Virus record (IMG/VR): IMGVR_UViG_3300025099_000050
Span: 1-39,992 of that record
DNA: 39,992 bases
Strand: one strand, 5' to 3'
Origin: a virus
A model generated the notes under the pieces. It searched no databases, was not told the DNA's origin, and saw only the letters and a list, made by a program, of their open reading frames with translations. The position numbers were made by a program, and so were the translations under genes. Below are positions 6,799 to 24,944 of the stretch, piece by piece. How positions within the stretch are numbered: position 1 is the first letter of the stretch; every line of letters begins with the position of its first letter.

Positions 6799-9205
6799 CT
6801 GCTATTTCATTTTTAGCGGTTAATGTTAATTTAATTGATTGATTTTCAGGCAGTTTATCCTTTAAAGATAAGAAATCTTCAATAGAATTCCTAGAGTCAT
6901 TAGTAAAGTTTACAAAGTTCAAAAGATCCAAACCTTGTGAATATTCCACTAGTTCTTCCAGTTTATCTATTATCTCCATATCGAATCTAACGTCATCTGA
7001 AATATCTAATTTCATAATCTCTTCTACAATAGGTTTGATGTCATCTTCACAACGCCAACATCCATTAGTATTGCTTTTATGATATTCATACACACTTCTG
7101 TAGAGATTGTGTAAACCTACATCATATTTATCACCATAATAGTTTAAAAACCTAAAGTTTTCAATGAATTCTGCAATACGTTGTGCAGTGGCAAACCTTT
7201 GTAAATGTGTTGGACTTTTCATAAATTCATGTGCTGTTATAAATCCATCTAACTTTGCAAATTGCTTTGCCACGTCTTTGGATACTTTTACTACTCTATA
7301 ATCTGACTGAAACTTATAACTGTAATTGTAGTTATTAGTATAATAATCACTACTACTACCGAGAATCTTAACGACTTTTGCAAGTTCATCAACATCTTTA
7401 GTCTCAGCATAAACTACAGCTTTTAGAGTAGGAGTCACATTTTCTGAAACAGGATGTAACATCTCTTGAAGCTCTGAAATCTTGTACTCTTGATTAGTGT
7501 ACTTAATATGAGTTTTCCAACCATCAGCTTTAAACTCAGCATTACGAGCAAACACCATCTTGTTAACTTTACGACGAGTTTTATTGTCAACTACATCTCC
7601 ATATAAATCACTGTCTAACTCTGCTTCTTCAACATCTGCATATTTCGAAAGCATTGAAGATTTACCTAATAATCTAGATACAGTATTAAATGTAGCTGTT
7701 TGCTCATAAGGTTTTCTAGAATCAGATAGATTAGTGTTACTAATTATTCTATCTCCCATCTTAAGCTTATCAATTTTAAATGCAAGAAATAAAGAAATGT
7801 CTTTAGTTTGATTTATAATAGTATAACTTTTAGCTTTACTAAAGTTACCATCTACATAATAAACTGTTTTTACTTTACTAATAGCATCAAAGAAAGCTGT
7901 CCAATCGTTCAACTCTCTATGAGCTATAGTTTCTCCTCCAATAGCAGACCTATTAGACACTAGACTACATAAATACATAGAAATCCCATCAAATATTTGA
8001 TGAAACTGCTGATTTGTGTTTGTCTTACCAGGAGATAAATTAGAGTTAAGTTTAAATGGAACGTCAAAATAACTCATATCACATATACTAGCTTTGATAG
8101 CTTTAGGATCATTACTCCTAAGAGCACTCCATCTATGGCCACTGCTACAAAGATTAGCTACTGCAGACATATACTCAAGATAGTCTGTCATTTGATATTC
8201 GCTTGCAATATTATCTTTAAAACTCTTTACAAGTTTCTTTAGCTTTGTCTCTATAAGATCAACAGTTTTTGGTGTATATCGTATCTCCTCACGAGAAGGT
8301 ACAAGATCTAATACACCAATATCAAACTTAACGCCTATACTAGCACGATACTCACTTTCACTTAAATTCTTAAGAAGATCCCAATTAATAGGATATACAA
8401 CTCTACCTACAAGAAGAAAAGCATCTCTACCGTCGTTAGTTAAAACATAGTTATCTGTTTCTTCTACAACTTGATACTCTTTATTCTTACTTGTATAGTA
8501 ATTTTTTATATTACCTATAGACTCTGTTACATTCTTAAAAACAAGATTCTCAAAGAAGCCAAGCTGAGTATTAATAGCTTCTTTAAAGTTACGTGCATCA
8601 TAGTGATCTTTAACAGGAACAATTACGGTACTACCGTTTTGTTGATCTGTAGATGTTTGATATACTTGATCCATATGTGGGACATTATCGTTATTACGAT
8701 ATATCATATAATATGTCTCAGTACCATTGTGTCTACTAGATACATAGAAAGTATCTGCATAGGCTAACGGTGATTTCGCACCGAGGCCAAAACCTCCAAT
8801 CTCGAAGTTGTTGTCTCTCTTAGTCGAAGCACCAAATGTAGTAAATACATTTTGTACACGATCTTGAGAAAGGCCACATCCATAATCATGGAACATAATA
8901 CACTCATCTACTCCTAGAATCGTGTTCTTCTCAATGTATTCAATACAAACCGTTTGCTTTGTAGACCAAAAAGCAGTGTTATCCCCTGTTTCCATAGGAA
9001 TCTTACCTTCTAGCTTTAAATTTCGCTCACGGTTTGCATCGATACAATTAGAAGTGATCTCACGGACAATCGAACCAATAGGATCCGAGTATAAATTAAT
9101 AAGGCTATCCATAATGATAGCCTGTGATCCGTCCGTTATTTTAAACTTGTGTTGTTGCTGTACGCCGATAACTTCTTCGACGTTTGTGTGTTGTTGTAGT
9201 TTCAT
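6779..9205 (-). CDS. rIIA-like GHKL ATPase
   Basis: An 808-residue protein with a GHKL (HSP90/gyrase/histidine-kinase type) ATP-binding domain at the N-terminus: REITSNCIDA (about 48-57, N-box), DYGCG (107-111, G1 box) and GGFGLGAKSP (137-146, ATP lid/G2). The remaining 600 residues are poorly recognisable, as in T4 rIIA, which has the same domain. Pairing with the downstream rIIB-like gene, with overlapping ends, strengthens the call. AATTAATTAA lies 8 bases upstream of the ATG, a motif shared with several other starts in the window. Confidence 0.82.
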   Translation of the reverse strand: MKLQQHTNVEEVIGVQQQHKFKITDGSQAIIMDSLINLYSDPIGSIVREITSNCIDANRERNLKLEGKIPMETGDNTAFWSTKQTVCIEYIEKNTILGVDECIMFHDYGCGLSQDRVQNVFTTFGASTKRDNNFEIGGFGLGAKSPLAYADTFYVSSRHNGTETYYMIYRNNDNVPHMDQVYQTSTDQQNGSTVIVPVKDHYDARNFKEAINTQLGFFENLVFKNVTESIGNIKNYYTSKNKEYQVVEETDNYVLTNDGRDAFLLVGRVVYPINWDLLKNLSESEYRASIGVKFDIGVLDLVPSREEIRYTPKTVDLIETKLKKLVKSFKDNIASEYQMTDYLEYMSAVANLCSSGHRWSALRSNDPKAIKASICDMSYFDVPFKLNSNLSPGKTNTNQQFHQIFDGISMYLCSLVSNRSAIGGETIAHRELNDWTAFFDAISKVKTVYYVDGNFSKAKSYTIINQTKDISLFLAFKIDKLKMGDRIISNTNLSDSRKPYEQTATFNTVSRLLGKSSMLSKYADVEEAELDSDLYGDVVDNKTRRKVNKMVFARNAEFKADGWKTHIKYTNQEYKISELQEMLHPVSENVTPTLKAVVYAETKDVDELAKVVKILGSSSDYYTNNYNYSYKFQSDYRVVKVSKDVAKQFAKLDGFITAHEFMKSPTHLQRFATAQRIAEFIENFRFLNYYGDKYDVGLHNLYRSVYEYHKSNTNGCWRCEDDIKPIVEEIMKLDISDDVRFDMEIIDKLEELVEYSQGLDLLNFVNFTNDSRNSIEDFLSLKDKLPENQSIKLTLTAKNEIADELLSS

Positions 9206-19571: not shown

Positions 19572-19833
19572 ATTGTTCCTTTGTTATTTTAAGAACTTTT
19601 AACATTCTGTTAGGATACTTTTCATTAGTTGCTGTATTAGGATGATTTGGTAAATAAGGTTGTAATCTGCCTGGAGCTTTAGCCCCTTTGTAATTAACAA
19701 ATGTGTAATCACATATCATACATCCCTCTGTAAATCTTCTAACTTTTGCCACTTCTAACCCTTTCCATCCTTGAATTGTCACATGGTCTCCTGGTTTAAG
19801 TTCTTCTCCTGTCACGTCTTCTACTTTTTCCAT
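19546..19833 (-). CDS. Small KOW/SH3-like hypothetical protein, 95 aa
   Basis: Not firmly recognised. The first half, LKPGDHVTIQGWKGLEVAKV, resembles a KOW/SH3-like beta-barrel start (PGDxVxIxGWxGLEVAxV), and the C-terminus is a short charged helix. It overlaps the polymerase stop by 13 bases and the helicase start by 26 bases, so it is translated within the polymerase-helicase cluster. It could be a nucleic-acid-binding or polymerase-accessory protein. Confidence 0.6.
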   Translation of the reverse strand: MEKVEDVTGEELKPGDHVTIQGWKGLEVAKVRRFTEGCMICDYTFVNYKGAKAPGRLQPYLPNHPNTATNEKYPNRMLKVLKITKEQYERFEQNL

Positions 19834-21692
19834 ACTGTTGATGTTTCTGTCTCTGCTTTTAATAGCCCTGATGGTATAATATCTAGAGTTGACTCTTCCA
19901 TAATCTCTCGAAGTTTAGTACACCACGCATCTGCGTAGCTTTTATGTACTATTGTATCGATTTGATCGTGAACTGTCATCACTAGTTTAACAGGTAAATT
20001 GTTTTCATAGATATAATTACGAACCATAACAAGTGCAGATTTACACATGTCAGCACCACTACCTTGAATTGGTGTGTTCTTGCTAGCACGTTCTATCTTA
20101 CCCATTACAGTTTTATCTGTATTTATACCTTGCCAATCTTCAAACCATCTGATTCTACGATATGGAGCATATGTTTTAATATGTCCATTTACTTTACCAT
20201 AATTACCAAGAGAAACTAAAAAGTTTTTAATTGCAGGAAATGCTCTAAAGTATTTCTCAATTAATCTCTCTGCTTCTTTAGTAGTTATTAGTAAGGTATC
20301 AGCTAGTTTGTGTGGTCCCATACCATAGGCTAAACCGAAGTTAATACTCTTTACATTTGTGCGTAGTTTTTTATGTTCAGAACAATTGCATTTAGCTTTT
20401 GATTGCATATAAGCACAATCAGATTCTGCTGCATCTTGCCATTCTTTACCATAAACTAAATCTGCACATACACTATGAAGATCTTCTCCATCTTCTAGTG
20501 CCTTAATCCACACTGGATCTTTACTTCCTGTGGCTATAATACATAGCTCTTGTGAGCTGTAGTCGCCTGATACAAATATATAATCATCATAACCACTGAT
20601 AAAGCAATTACGATAATCATTATGTGCAGGTATTTGCTGCATGTTAGGCTTACCTGATGCAACTCTACCTGTATTTAATATTTGTTTGAAGCTTGTACGG
20701 ACTCTGCCGTCACTATCTACATTCTCAAAGAACTTATCACCATAACTAGTGGCAAGTTTGGCTTGCTCTTTGTATTTAATATATGTTTTGACAAATATAT
20801 CTTTGCTATGAACGTTTAAATTCTTACCGTTCACATCTTCTACATCTAGTCCATATGTTTTAAATACATCTAACACTTGTTTTGGTGATGACCATTTTAC
20901 ATTTACTTTTCTTAACTGTTCTGTCTCTATAAAAAGATCACCTTGTATATAATCATTTACAAACTTATTAAGTTTTGCATTAGATTCTACAAATGTGTCT
21001 AATGTATTGCACATGCTCTTAACCTTATAAGATGCATTCTTTGCAAGCTTACTCCAGTTATCTTTGTCTAGTCCAATACCATTATACTCAATATCTGCAT
21101 ATGCTAATGCTGCATTGTTCTCAAGCTCTACTATCTTTATAAGATTGTGCTGTATCACTGTAATTGTCTGAGTATTATATAGTTGTACAAGATATTCTAC
21201 ATCTTTAGCACCATATACTATTTCAGATTCAGTGAATTCGTCACTACCTTTAGAGATAAAATTAACTCTTACAGATTTATCCATAACTATATCTAATTCT
21301 CTTTCAAGAACATTAAGTAAGCTATGTGACATCTGTTTACCACAATGTATAACTTGTGAAGTTAGCATAGTATCCCACACATTATTAAGTCTAATATTAT
21401 GTTTCATAAGAAACTTGTAATCAAACTTAACGTTATGCAATACTTTAATTATATCAGTGTCTTCTAAAATACTCTTCAAAGGTGATATATCTATGTATCT
21501 AGTATCGATAACAAATTGCCTATTATCATCACCTATTTGTAGCATTATAAGTTTTGCATCTAAGTAGTTAAGTCCTGTGGTTTCAGTATCTACTGCAAGT
21601 ACTTTTTTATCCTTGCAATATTCTACTACATCCTGCATTGTTACAATATCACAACAATCCAGAAGCTTTGGATTTCCTACGAAGCTTATCAT
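19821..21692 (-). CDS. DNA polymerase I (family A) with 3'-5' exonuclease
   Basis: A 623-residue family A polymerase. The N-terminal exonuclease has AVDTETTGLNYLDAKLIML (Exo I DxE, about 35-53), a HNVKFDYKFLMKH segment (Exo II) and EFTESEIVYGAKDVEYL (Exo III). The polymerase domain has DYSSQELCIIA (motif A, about 376-386), KSINFGLAYGM (motif B/O-helix with Lys and Tyr) and MTVHDQID (motif C, about 571-578). There is no 5'-3' exonuclease domain, as in T7-like and crAss-like PolA. The start overlaps the previous stop (ATGA). It is the replicative polymerase candidate. Confidence 0.9.
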   Translation of the reverse strand: MISFVGNPKLLDCCDIVTMQDVVEYCKDKKVLAVDTETTGLNYLDAKLIMLQIGDDNRQFVIDTRYIDISPLKSILEDTDIIKVLHNVKFDYKFLMKHNIRLNNVWDTMLTSQVIHCGKQMSHSLLNVLERELDIVMDKSVRVNFISKGSDEFTESEIVYGAKDVEYLVQLYNTQTITVIQHNLIKIVELENNAALAYADIEYNGIGLDKDNWSKLAKNASYKVKSMCNTLDTFVESNAKLNKFVNDYIQGDLFIETEQLRKVNVKWSSPKQVLDVFKTYGLDVEDVNGKNLNVHSKDIFVKTYIKYKEQAKLATSYGDKFFENVDSDGRVRTSFKQILNTGRVASGKPNMQQIPAHNDYRNCFISGYDDYIFVSGDYSSQELCIIATGSKDPVWIKALEDGEDLHSVCADLVYGKEWQDAAESDCAYMQSKAKCNCSEHKKLRTNVKSINFGLAYGMGPHKLADTLLITTKEAERLIEKYFRAFPAIKNFLVSLGNYGKVNGHIKTYAPYRRIRWFEDWQGINTDKTVMGKIERASKNTPIQGSGADMCKSALVMVRNYIYENNLPVKLVMTVHDQIDTIVHKSYADAWCTKLREIMEESTLDIIPSGLLKAETETSTVWKK

Positions 21693-22626: not shown

Positions 22627-23115
22627 TTAGGCAGATAAATCATCCACTACTTGTGTAACATTTACACCTACTTTGTCATGCGCAATAAGTGTGTCTTCTG
22701 CATTTAAATCAAATGAGATTTCACAATTACGATAGATAGGACGACCACCATTCATTAATATGTCACCGTTAGATGGATTAACTTTAGGTTGTTGCTCTCC
22801 TCCATTCCAAGTTCTTTGCTCGAAAGTTTCAGTGATTAATAGTTTACACTCTTTACCGATAGTAATAGAGAAATCACATCCCTCTGTGATATTATACTTG
22901 TCGATAAATTGCTTAGAAACTGTTTGAAATGCTACTCTACGTTGAATACCATCTCCAACTCCTGGATAACCTTCTAAGAAGAATCCTAATGGATTTGCTT
23001 CAGCTGGCTTCTCTGTTTCTTGACGTAACTGTAACTGAAAGATTTCAGGGTTACGAGTTGCTAAAATTTGCTCAACCGTTACGGGAGCTGTTGCTGTGTT
23101 TGTGTTTTGTTCCAT
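22627..23115 (-). CDS. Hypothetical protein, 162 aa, SSB candidate
   Basis: Not recognised. A flexible Thr/Ala-rich N-terminus is followed by a mixed beta region (NPLGFFLEGYPGVGDGIQRR) and strands such as GCDFSITIGKECKLLITETF, ending in an acidic tail (VNVTQVVDDLSA). Size and tail would fit a small phage SSB or abundant DNA-binding protein, but no OB-fold motif is certain. It follows the 1.4-kb noncoding region directly and has TTAATTAAT upstream of its ATG, so it may share a transcript with the RNA. The putative SSB at 12366 is the rival candidate. Confidence 0.6.
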   Translation of the reverse strand: MEQNTNTATAPVTVEQILATRNPEIFQLQLRQETEKPAEANPLGFFLEGYPGVGDGIQRRVAFQTVSKQFIDKYNITEGCDFSITIGKECKLLITETFEQRTWNGGEQQPKVNPSNGDILMNGGRPIYRNCEISFDLNAEDTLIAHDKVGVNVTQVVDDLSA

Positions 23116-23169: not shown

Positions 23170-23240
23170 TAACAGAACAGTATAAATTAGGATTACTTTT
23201 TATAAGATGATCAGTCTAACCTAATAATACTGTTCTGTTA
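23170..23240 (-). repeat. Fourteen-bp inverted repeat closing the RNA region
   Basis: TAACAGAACAGTAT (23170-23183) pairs perfectly with ATACTGTTCTGTTA (23227-23240). Inside, ATTAGG (23186-23191) pairs with CCTAAT (23220-23225) after a small internal loop, giving a long rod of about 20 bp. It lies between tRNA-like element 1 and the 162-residue gene, at the 3' end of the proposed RNA. There is no T tract after it, so it is more likely a 3' stabilising or boundary structure than an intrinsic terminator. Confidence 0.7.
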
Positions 23241-23262
23241 GCGATTATGGGAAAACGCTTAG

Positions 23263-23305
23263 TGAAGCACATGAGAATCGAACTCATGTTTATACCATAT
23301 GCTTC
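23263..23305 (-). ncRNA. tRNA-like minihelix 1 (acceptor plus T arm, no anticodon)
   Basis: Minus strand 5' to 3': acceptor strand GAAGCAT, 11-base connector ATGGTATAAAC, T stem ATGAG, consensus T loop TTCGATT, T stem CTCAT, acceptor GTGCTTC, then A in the discriminator position. The acceptor is 7 bp (one T-G pair), the T stem is 5 bp, and there is no room for D or anticodon arms. The connector GG could contact the T loop as G18/G19 do in tRNA. An adjacent 7-bp hairpin (23309-23315 with 23333-23339) has a loop AACGCTT (23320-23326 on the complement) that matches AAGCGTT (complement of 23254-23260) on the other side, a possible pseudoknot around the element. CCA is not encoded. Confidence 0.65.
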
Positions 23306-24357
23306 TTAAAACCAAACACAAGCGTTCAGGACTTGGTTTACGGGCAGCTTTGCATACGCCCACCCATCTAGTTCTTTATGTTTGGTACATAGTACTCTGA
23401 GATTACGAGTACTAATGATGTGTCTTTGATAGGATTATAGCCCGCCAAGGCATTCCCTCTTTTATCCACACTCTTTTGAAGTGTATCACATCAGTGACGG
23501 TTAGTATAGCTAACCACGCTTATCGATAATACCTACTCACACAATAATAAATCTATAATAGAGTAGCGAACCCTAAAACAAATGTTTCTTGTGCGAACAC
23601 CTATACCTTGCGAGTATAAAATGCACTACATTCACCTAAGTGTGTAGTATTAGTCACCTTTCAGCACTATCGTCCACTGTCTTTTGCTTTTTTTTAAGTT
23701 GTTTAGAATCAACTGCCAATTGTTGGGGGAGTGCAGTGGAGATTGCTCACATCCTTTTGAGATGCAAATACAACACTAGCCCATATGATTTGTCAAATCA
23801 CGGTAATTTTAGACATCCCGAAGGACACCTATTTTACTGAACAATACCCATACATAGCTTGACGAGCTAACTCTGAACTTGTTCTACAGATTATTCTTAT
23901 TGGGATTACTCCCGCAACATTAGCTGGCAACTAATGTCACACATTCACTCAGGCGATAGCCCTCTGTTTCAATGTGATATTCTGCTTGCGTAGATTGACC
24001 ATAAATGGCAACACACCAAGAGTATTTCTCCCCTTGATGTGTCTTTAACACATTACTGTGCTTATCGGGCCACGCCCCATATTTTTAATACTTGCTTATG
24101 AACAGAACATAAGACTACATTTAGCAACTACGTCAGTCACTCACGTGTAATGTTAAACACTTTATACGCTAGCACAATGCAGTGCGCATCTGTTTCGCTT
24201 TGCATTCAAAGCGTATCTCTTAGCTGCACGAAAAATATCCTTTCAAAATATTCCTCTATCATCTTAAGCCAAAGAACGCATGCTGTTTCTTCTTTTTTCG
24301 TACTAGTGAACTCACTAGACGTGCGAAAGTCTTGCAGACGTCATACTGCAGCCCTCT

Positions 24358-24399
24358 GAAGAGTAGCAGGAATCGAACCTGCACTAACCATTTACTCTT
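24358..24399 (-). ncRNA. tRNA-like minihelix 2 (acceptor plus T arm, no anticodon)
   Basis: Minus strand 5' to 3': acceptor AAGAGTA, 10-base connector AATGGTTAGT, T stem GCAGG, T loop TTCGATT, T stem CCTGC, acceptor TACTCTT, then C as discriminator. All 7 acceptor and 5 T-stem pairs are Watson-Crick. The T loop is identical to that of minihelix 1, and both connectors share ATGGT. Between the end of this element and the start of minihelix 1 are 1052 bases. An acceptor/T-arm minihelix is a known minimal substrate of bacterial RNase P, so the two could mark processing points; that is inference. Confidence 0.65.
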
Positions 24400-24572
24400 A
24401 ATAATCATTAGGTTAACACTCTAAACCGTTCCTATGGATGGTTCTTATTCACTCATTTTACAAGAGTGTCTTTATTAACATTTAAGGCCTCATAAGTGAG
24501 CTATAAGCTCAAACTGTTTGGCACTACCTAATGTGCAAGGGCTAATCTCTAAGATAACCGCTTGTATTATAA

Positions 24573-24944
24573 TCAGAGACTACATTTAGCCCCTGATTTT
24601 CTGATAATAGCTATAAGATCTATCAATTCTGTCGCAGACATACCATTTGGCAATGTGATAGATAGTTTAGTATTATTATGTTCAACACGCTCTTCACGTG
24701 GTTTTGTAATACTAACACTTTTAGCTGGTAATCTCTTAGCATTGCACAATGTAGTGCGAGCTTTGGTCCAATACTTATTTTTTATACGCTCACCTTTATT
24801 GTTTACGTATGAAGGCATAGTATACCTTTTTGGTAAGTCTTTGATACTTACAGGGAGTTTACCCTTAAAGAATACTCTTTCTATTTGTAGCATTCTTACA
24901 ATCTCTTCTTTGATTTCTAGTGGAGTAGTTAGTTGTCTTCTCAT
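24573..24944 (-). CDS. Hypothetical protein, 123 aa, basic
   Basis: Not recognised. A basic, helical N-terminal half (PLEIKEEIVRMLQIERVFFK, then KGKLPVSIKDLPKRY) precedes a middle KNKYWTKARTTLCNAKRLPA and a C-terminal ITLPNGMSATELIDLIAIIR. The last part resembles a short ribbon-helix-helix-like or helical dimerisation segment. The stop codon lies inside the outermost hairpin of the noncoding region, so gene and RNA may be joined on one transcript. The plus-strand frame over the same bases is a shadow. Confidence 0.6.
   Translation of the reverse strand: MRRQLTTPLEIKEEIVRMLQIERVFFKGKLPVSIKDLPKRYTMPSYVNNKGERIKNKYWTKARTTLCNAKRLPAKSVSITKPREERVEHNNTKLSITLPNGMSATELIDLIAIIRKSGAKCSL

Follow-up and report, generated by a model that had tools for sequence, protein, structure and literature searches.

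A GOLLD RNA of a crAss-like phage lies between two anticodon-less tRNA-like domains that may serve its excision

The window considered here, namely the whole stretch of 39,992 nucleotides of a single IMG/VR virus record (IMGVR_UViG_3300025099_000050), contains an extended gene-free region between two open reading frames (ORFs) of the minus strand, one upstream of 123 amino acids (24573..24944) and one downstream of 162 amino acids (22627..23115), neither of whose proteins matched PHROGs or Pfam. No credible gene appears between them in the ORF list, as the first-pass annotation of this DNA had maintained, and its placement of minus-strand genes on either side of the region is equally borne out. 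Further downstream on the same strand lies a DNA polymerase gene (19821..21692; PHROG 17, E 6e-99), and the plus strand carries the gene for the major capsid protein that identifies the phage (36989..38428; PF23898 Crass_capsid, 440.6 bits); PHROGs and Pfam searches also returned a P22-like portal domain and helicases among the other proteins of the window. The capsid match places the source among the crAss-like phages, a dominant lineage in the human gut, an identity that had been overlooked. The nearest relatives of the polymerase belong to uncultured phages and its matches to named phages all remain below 60% identity, the best being gut crAss-like records at ~28-32%; hence, this phage has no cultured relative. 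When the DNA of the region was compared with that of 50,697 named phages, no match appeared.

The gene-free region, delimited as 23170-24592, had been interpreted as a giant structured RNA, either a member or an analogue of the GOLLD and ROOL classes, on the minus strand. Infernal searches against Rfam 15, of the kind that had been proposed, returned one above-threshold match in the whole window, both strands included: GOLLD (RF02032), at 23394..23783 on the minus strand, with a cmscan score of 222 bits (gathering cut-off, 150 bits), E 1e-61 and all 416/416 model positions (1-416) covered. On this match, the RNA is to be regarded as a GOLLD member rather than a mere analogue, an assignment from sequence that we consider practically certain. 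ROOL, OLE, HEARO and group I/II introns did not reach their cut-offs on either strand of the window and were absent from the matches in the region even up to E 10; tmRNA (RF00023), the Pistol ribozyme and the Y RNA family had no match in the window. Weak Rfam matches in the region (RAGATH-12, hairpin ribozyme and others, E 2.5-10) are at chance level and were discarded, and an intron, tRNA or tmRNA within the window was likewise dropped. In three other loci, weak matches to Chlorobi-1 RNA (RF01696, E 0.2-0.5) overlap the 3' part of GOLLD (L119 1807-1888, L126 2155-2236, L127 527-608), possibly reflecting a shared motif.

The Rfam model covers the 3' domain of the RNA. Outside it lies a 5' domain of ~300 nt (23784..24080, minus strand), conserved and with two-sided changes in many of its stems, which an alignment of ten loci shows to be common to crAss-like and non-crAss phages; in this alignment the conserved RNA opens sharply with ATGGGGCGTGGCCCGATA at window position 24080. 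The whole GOLLD RNA is therefore ~687 nt long here, from about 24080 to 23394 on the minus strand, and includes within its 3' domain a short variable linker without tRNA, recognizable as a gapped or variable stretch of the alignment (approximately 23695..23725, minus strand). The interval originally proposed does hold a giant RNA, which however takes up only part of it: the remainder consists of two tRNA-like domains, poorly conserved DNA, a hairpin insert (CCAAACA...TGTTTGG, about 23308..23384, minus strand) peculiar to this window and a long hairpin outside GOLLD, in the leader that precedes the 162-aa gene (ACAGTAT...ATACTGT, about 23175..23240, minus strand, fold z -3.93).

Unusual fold stability is a property of the minus strand only: with 20 dinucleotide shuffles per strand, a 706-nt core folds on this strand at -208 kcal/mol with z -4.95, none of the 20 shuffles being as good, whereas the same core on the plus strand has z -1.68. 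The ten-locus alignment yields 126 consensus pairs, 64 of which, distributed over both domains, are changed on both sides in one or more sequences, counts that derive from few sequences with shared descent. The covariation across homologues expected under the original proposal is thus present in these ten related loci. Other features reported earlier also hold: G+C is 0.38-0.39 in the region versus about 0.31-0.37 in the adjoining kilobases, and the C-UUCG-G tetraloop at 23819-23822 is found on the minus strand, the plus strand reading CGAA; the hairpin that it caps varies in length among relatives. That the region is a replication origin or an unrecognized coding region, rather than a structured RNA, might be argued from the GC skew, whose sign switches near 26 kb, at a distance of a few kb from the region and at the meeting point of divergent gene blocks. 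The full-length GOLLD match, the covariation and the strand-specific folding render this reading extremely improbable, as does the lack of a conserved ORF; the origin was dropped as a candidate here, the skew minimum near 26 kb lying outside the region.

In several respects this RNA conforms to its class, which was reportedly first described by Weinberg et al. in 2009 and shows raised expression during lysis: it is phage-encoded and combines a full-length conserved 3' domain with a separate 5' domain and a variable linker. It differs in its length, which exceeds 800 nt in many members, in its crAss-like host phage and in its relation to tRNAs: the linker holds none and the vicinity lacks a true one, but two anticodon-less tRNA-like domains lie outside the RNA. 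GOLLD is a known class with a new member here; the tRNA-like bracket is the new part, which the first-pass annotation overlooked while correctly recognizing the giant RNA between its arms.

Domain A, of 41 nt (24359..24399, minus strand), lies ~280 nt 5' of GOLLD and is defined by the structure of its acceptor and T arm: a 7-bp acceptor stem (AAGAGTA/TACTCTT), a D-loop-like segment of 10 nt (AATGGTTAGT) and the T arm GCAGG-TTCGATT-CCTGC. Domain B, of 42 nt (23264..23305, minus strand), lies 3' of GOLLD and is supported by structure, covariation and 65 bits with model R1; it has the acceptor stem GAAGCAT/GTGCTTC, a segment of 11 nt (ATGGTATAAAC) and the T arm ATGAG-TTCGATT-CTCAT. In both, the segment of 10-11 nt carries ATGG, the T stem has 5 bp and its loop reads TTCGATT, the anticodon arm is absent and CCA is not encoded, the nucleotides that follow being CAGA for A and ACTA for B. 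The two domains are unlike each other in stem sequence. Standard searches pass them by: domain A scores 24.6 bits with the Rfam tRNA model (RF00005, cut-off 29), domain B is not listed for this model in the region up to E 10, and ARAGORN calls no tRNA in the window, nor does it recognize relatives of the domain-B type as tRNAs. They resemble the tRNA-like domain of tmRNA (RF00023) in having an acceptor and T arm without anticodon arm, but score neither as tmRNA nor as above-threshold tRNA, and lack helix P2, the G3-U70 pair and a tag frame. The bacterial Y RNA YrlA, which they may resemble, also contains, within a noncoding RNA, a module that mimics tRNA without a normal anticodon arm; here, instead, the elements are free-standing hairpins of 41-42 nt outside the large RNA.

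Are these structures real? Two strict tRNA-like structures occur in the window, on the same strand and both beside GOLLD, when simulation with the dinucleotide composition of the window leads one to expect 0.005 by chance per 40 kb, both strands counted. Seven distinct domain-B-type sequences from different phages have 97.6% of their cells paired, with six of the 12 pairs changing on both sides, and controls slid along the sequence, used beside a shuffle control that ignores kinship, fall to 30-57%. A covariance model built from these seven types, domain A unseen, finds domain A with 43 bits (E 8e-10), the next best match in the window having 13 bits and no other exceeding 14. Throughout the tRNA-like domains, neither the T loop nor the GG of the D-loop-like segment varies. 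With one observation on the other side, namely that ViennaRNA favours another fold for domain B taken alone, it is very probable that the domains are real conserved RNA structures. They could still be decayed remnants of phage tRNAs once arrayed near GOLLD, devoid of present function: GOLLD often adjoins tRNA islands (PMC12286853), and two or three such domains stand in a row in some relatives, part of them with longer arms and an encoded CCA. However, decay would hardly keep twelve base pairs through compensatory changes together with an invariant GG and T loop, nor confine the element to one fixed locus in 23 of the 33 records searched, and a recognizable anticodon arm is missing in every case. 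We thus consider this origin quite improbable.

To place these elements in context, we compared 13 GOLLD loci including the window, which were collected with DNA patterns from IMG/VR; a 16-base pattern from the start of the GOLLD 5' domain retrieved five of them in addition to the others. The sample is limited in size and contains some redundancy, L116 being identical to L117, and most records are fragments. Of the 13 stretches that a GOLLD word pattern picked from bacterial genome contigs, none contained GOLLD, and another pattern (CCGTCACTGA...GTGGATA) proved too loose, GOLLD being absent from all its 39 viral stretches. Homologues of the 123-aa gene also lie 5' of GOLLD in L002, L007 and L034, and those of the 162-aa gene 3' of GOLLD in L007, L034 and L033. 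A tRNA-like element follows GOLLD on its 3' side in all five crAss-like loci, at 12-13 nt from its 3' end in L032, L034 and L036; the window differs from these relatives by the hairpin insert of 75-80 nt mentioned above. The upstream domain is present in only three of the five, among which L033 has tRNA-like elements with longer arms on both sides of GOLLD.

Whole-record searches found the domain-B type in 23 of 33 records, at one locus only where several domains occur, and in none of the non-crAss GOLLD records. Domain B thus recurs in many crAss-like phages at a single locus, upstream of the polymerase region, and it does so also in relatives without GOLLD, some of which have two or three such domains in tandem; in L019 it is one of three, two of which end in encoded ACCA. 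Since relatives without GOLLD carry it too, domain B is neither specific nor dedicated to GOLLD, and it is GOLLD that occupies a locus made up of tRNA-like domains, rather than the domain being tied to GOLLD.

Further elements occur in other phages. A structured-looking stretch of ~250 nt (GAGAGGTTGTC...AAGGCTGCAGATACTTCGCCTC...) is conserved just 5' of domain B in L030, L079, L082, L021 and L016, and another conserved element of ~70 nt, closed by AAGTACAAC/GTTGTACTT, lies just 5' of the tRNA-like domain in L017, L028, L083, L085 and L033; neither had an Rfam match in the loci tested. In L016, a crAss-like record without GOLLD, a tmRNA-like end (GGGGTG...TCACTCCACTA, about 8320-8470), spotted by eye and below Rfam detection, takes the place of domain B. 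Above-threshold tRNAs of odd length (131-137 nt), with long inserts, occur in the crAss-like records L031 (about 633-763) and L021 (13513-13649).

Comparison with L002 bears on the history of the cassette. This record represents a different crAss-like lineage, its polymerase and upstream gene having 53% protein identity to those of the window and the downstream gene of the window having no match in it. GOLLD, in contrast, is 93% identical over 717 nt, as are, to 96%, the block 24321-24398 starting at domain A and, to 100%, the block 23259-23305 containing domain B; the similarity is broken between blocks, 24097-24320 being poorly conserved, and the outermost blocks stop at the outer edges of the two tRNA-like domains. 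Given this coincidence of edges, the sequences suggest that GOLLD and its tRNA-like domains were transferred as one unit. One could go further and consider the domains as recombination edges for swapping the GOLLD cassette among crAss-like phages, without any processing role. The marked difference in identity between GOLLD and the flanking proteins and the ends of the conserved blocks, at 24398 in domain A and 23305-23259 in domain B, speak for this idea, and tRNA genes are classic insertion sites; yet the domains covary as RNA helices, which homology arms need not do, the stem sequences of A and B differ, and the Pistol ribozyme found upstream of GOLLD in other phages is a processing element, not a recombination element. 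A pure recombination role is therefore unlikely, if less so than decay, and the two readings can both hold.

The position upstream of GOLLD is occupied by different elements in different phages. Within ~300 nt upstream of GOLLD, eight of the 13 loci (the window, L032, L033, L035, L116, L117, L118 and L120) have a tRNA-like domain, a Pistol ribozyme or a mini-tmRNA, while no processing element lies near the 5' end in L034, L036, L119, L134 and L135. The Pistol ribozyme (RF02679, 69.4 bits) takes this position in the non-crAss phages L116, L117 and L120, ~43 nt 5' of GOLLD (L116 2342-2267, minus; L120 912-837, minus), and L033 has one ~890 nt 5' of GOLLD with a gene in between (220-289, plus). 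In L035 and L118, also non-crAss, the place is taken by a tag-less tmRNA-like domain of 83 nt (51.8 bits), ~115 nt 5' of GOLLD (L035 1006-1088, plus; L118 2393-2311, minus; a further copy is L126 289-371, plus), which consists of the tRNA-like domain and helix P2 only, without tag frame, ends in ACTA and keeps G3-U70, the alanine identity element. A literature search that covered few subscription journals found neither Pistol linked to GOLLD nor GOLLD and crAss mentioned together.

Three side observations concern the non-crAss phages and L134. Some of the former have, ~1.6-1.9 kb 3' of GOLLD, a tmRNA-like gene of full length (411-427 nt, 66-75 bits; L125 3160-2734, minus; G090:C1:35155-35581; G092:C1:14354-14764), that of L125 not being called by ARAGORN; L125 has a second tmRNA-like element of 114 nt (776-663, minus), which with 45.3 bits is just below the tmRNA cut-off. 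In L134, a hairpin that resembles a terminator and ends in a T-rich tail (GGGGCACATTCGTGTGCTCCTTCTTTTTCTTTTTT) precedes GOLLD by ~50 nt, suggesting an own promoter in that phage.

In functional terms, these findings raise the question of why a large RNA should be placed between tRNA look-alikes that cannot decode. A precedent comes from eukaryotes, where RNase P and RNase Z recognize the acceptor/T-arm stack of mascRNA and menRNA, whose elbow is formed by two conserved guanosines, and RNase P cleavage at mascRNA makes the 3' end of MALAT1 (PMC11693755). The phage domains share with mascRNA and menRNA (of MALAT1 and MEN-beta) the acceptor stem, the T arm and the conserved GG forming the elbow, and domain B also shares their position directly behind the 3' end of a long, structured noncoding RNA; mascRNA has in addition a small D arm and an equivalent of the anticodon arm, and there is no common descent. 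From these shared parts, and the invariance of the GG and T loop, we infer that RNase P and RNase Z may be recruited; the geometry fits maturation of the mascRNA type, domain B following GOLLD at a distance of 12-13 nt in three relatives, the phage cleavage being putative. As to the fate of the RNA, the GOLLD of env-38, the only member for which this is known, forms a homo-oligomeric cage of 14 subunits held by intermolecular kissing loops, with the variable linker placed inside and a proposed role in enclosing the linker or other molecules (Kretsch et al. 2025, PMC12286853).

The best explanation, to which we assign a probability of roughly 0.6 on sequence grounds, is that tRNA-processing enzymes excise GOLLD from a longer transcript before it assembles into a cage. 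GOLLD (~687 nt) would be transcribed within a longer, early, polycistronic transcript of the minus strand; in L036 it starts ~10 nt past the stop codon of the upstream gene, hence a continuous transcript, and co-transcription with the flanking same-strand genes, is likely. The outer edges would be marked by the tRNA-like domains, whose acceptor/T-arm stack and elbow would be recognized by tRNA-processing enzymes of the host: RNase P would cut just 5' of domain B, setting the 3' end of GOLLD, and RNase Z or exonucleases would cut 3' of domain A, freeing its 5' side, where further trimming is needed in this model since domain A lies ~280 nt away. The trimmed RNA would then fold and form a hollow multimer like env-38, a cage that we predict by homology and that may in turn bring some benefit to the phage. 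In other GOLLD phages, the 5' step would fall to the self-cleaving Pistol ribozyme or the tag-less tmRNA-like domain.

Each part of this explanation deserves its own weight. Whether the tRNA-like domains act in the maturation of GOLLD is, on their sequences, an evenly balanced question. Since other phages have in the same place either a Pistol ribozyme or a tmRNA without tag, excision may be a conserved need served by interchangeable parts; the stronger proposition built on this, that the anticodon-less domains are dedicated tags through which crAss-like phages hijack RNase P and RNase Z for excision of the cage RNA, is tentative and falls a little short of even odds. Counting against excision are the five of 13 loci without a near 5' element, the domain B of relatives lacking GOLLD, the terminator-like hairpin of L134, the unencoded CCA and the other fold that ViennaRNA favours for domain B. 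Some of the same facts would suit the idea that the domains are themselves end products, released together with GOLLD, be it as cargo of its cage or as substrates or decoys of enzymes that handle tRNAs: they exist without GOLLD and in arrays, the mini-tmRNAs of L035 and L118 keep G3-U70, and the cage may hold phage tRNAs according to Kretsch et al. (PMC12286853). The domains of the window, however, have neither G3-U70 nor anticodon arm and lie outside GOLLD rather than in its linker, which makes such a role improbable, only marginally less so than tRNA decay.

Few bacterial RNA classes reach the size of GOLLD, whose frequent vicinity to tRNAs has been recorded without any explanation being put to the test. 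The presence beside it of tRNA look-alikes that do not decode, tag-less tmRNAs or a self-cleaving ribozyme favours RNA processing over translation as the basis of this neighbourhood. GOLLD is now placed in crAss-like phages, with exact ends defined for cloning and structural work; if its excision by tRNA-processing enzymes is true, these phages would provide a bacterial-virus counterpart of the maturation of MALAT1 and mascRNA.
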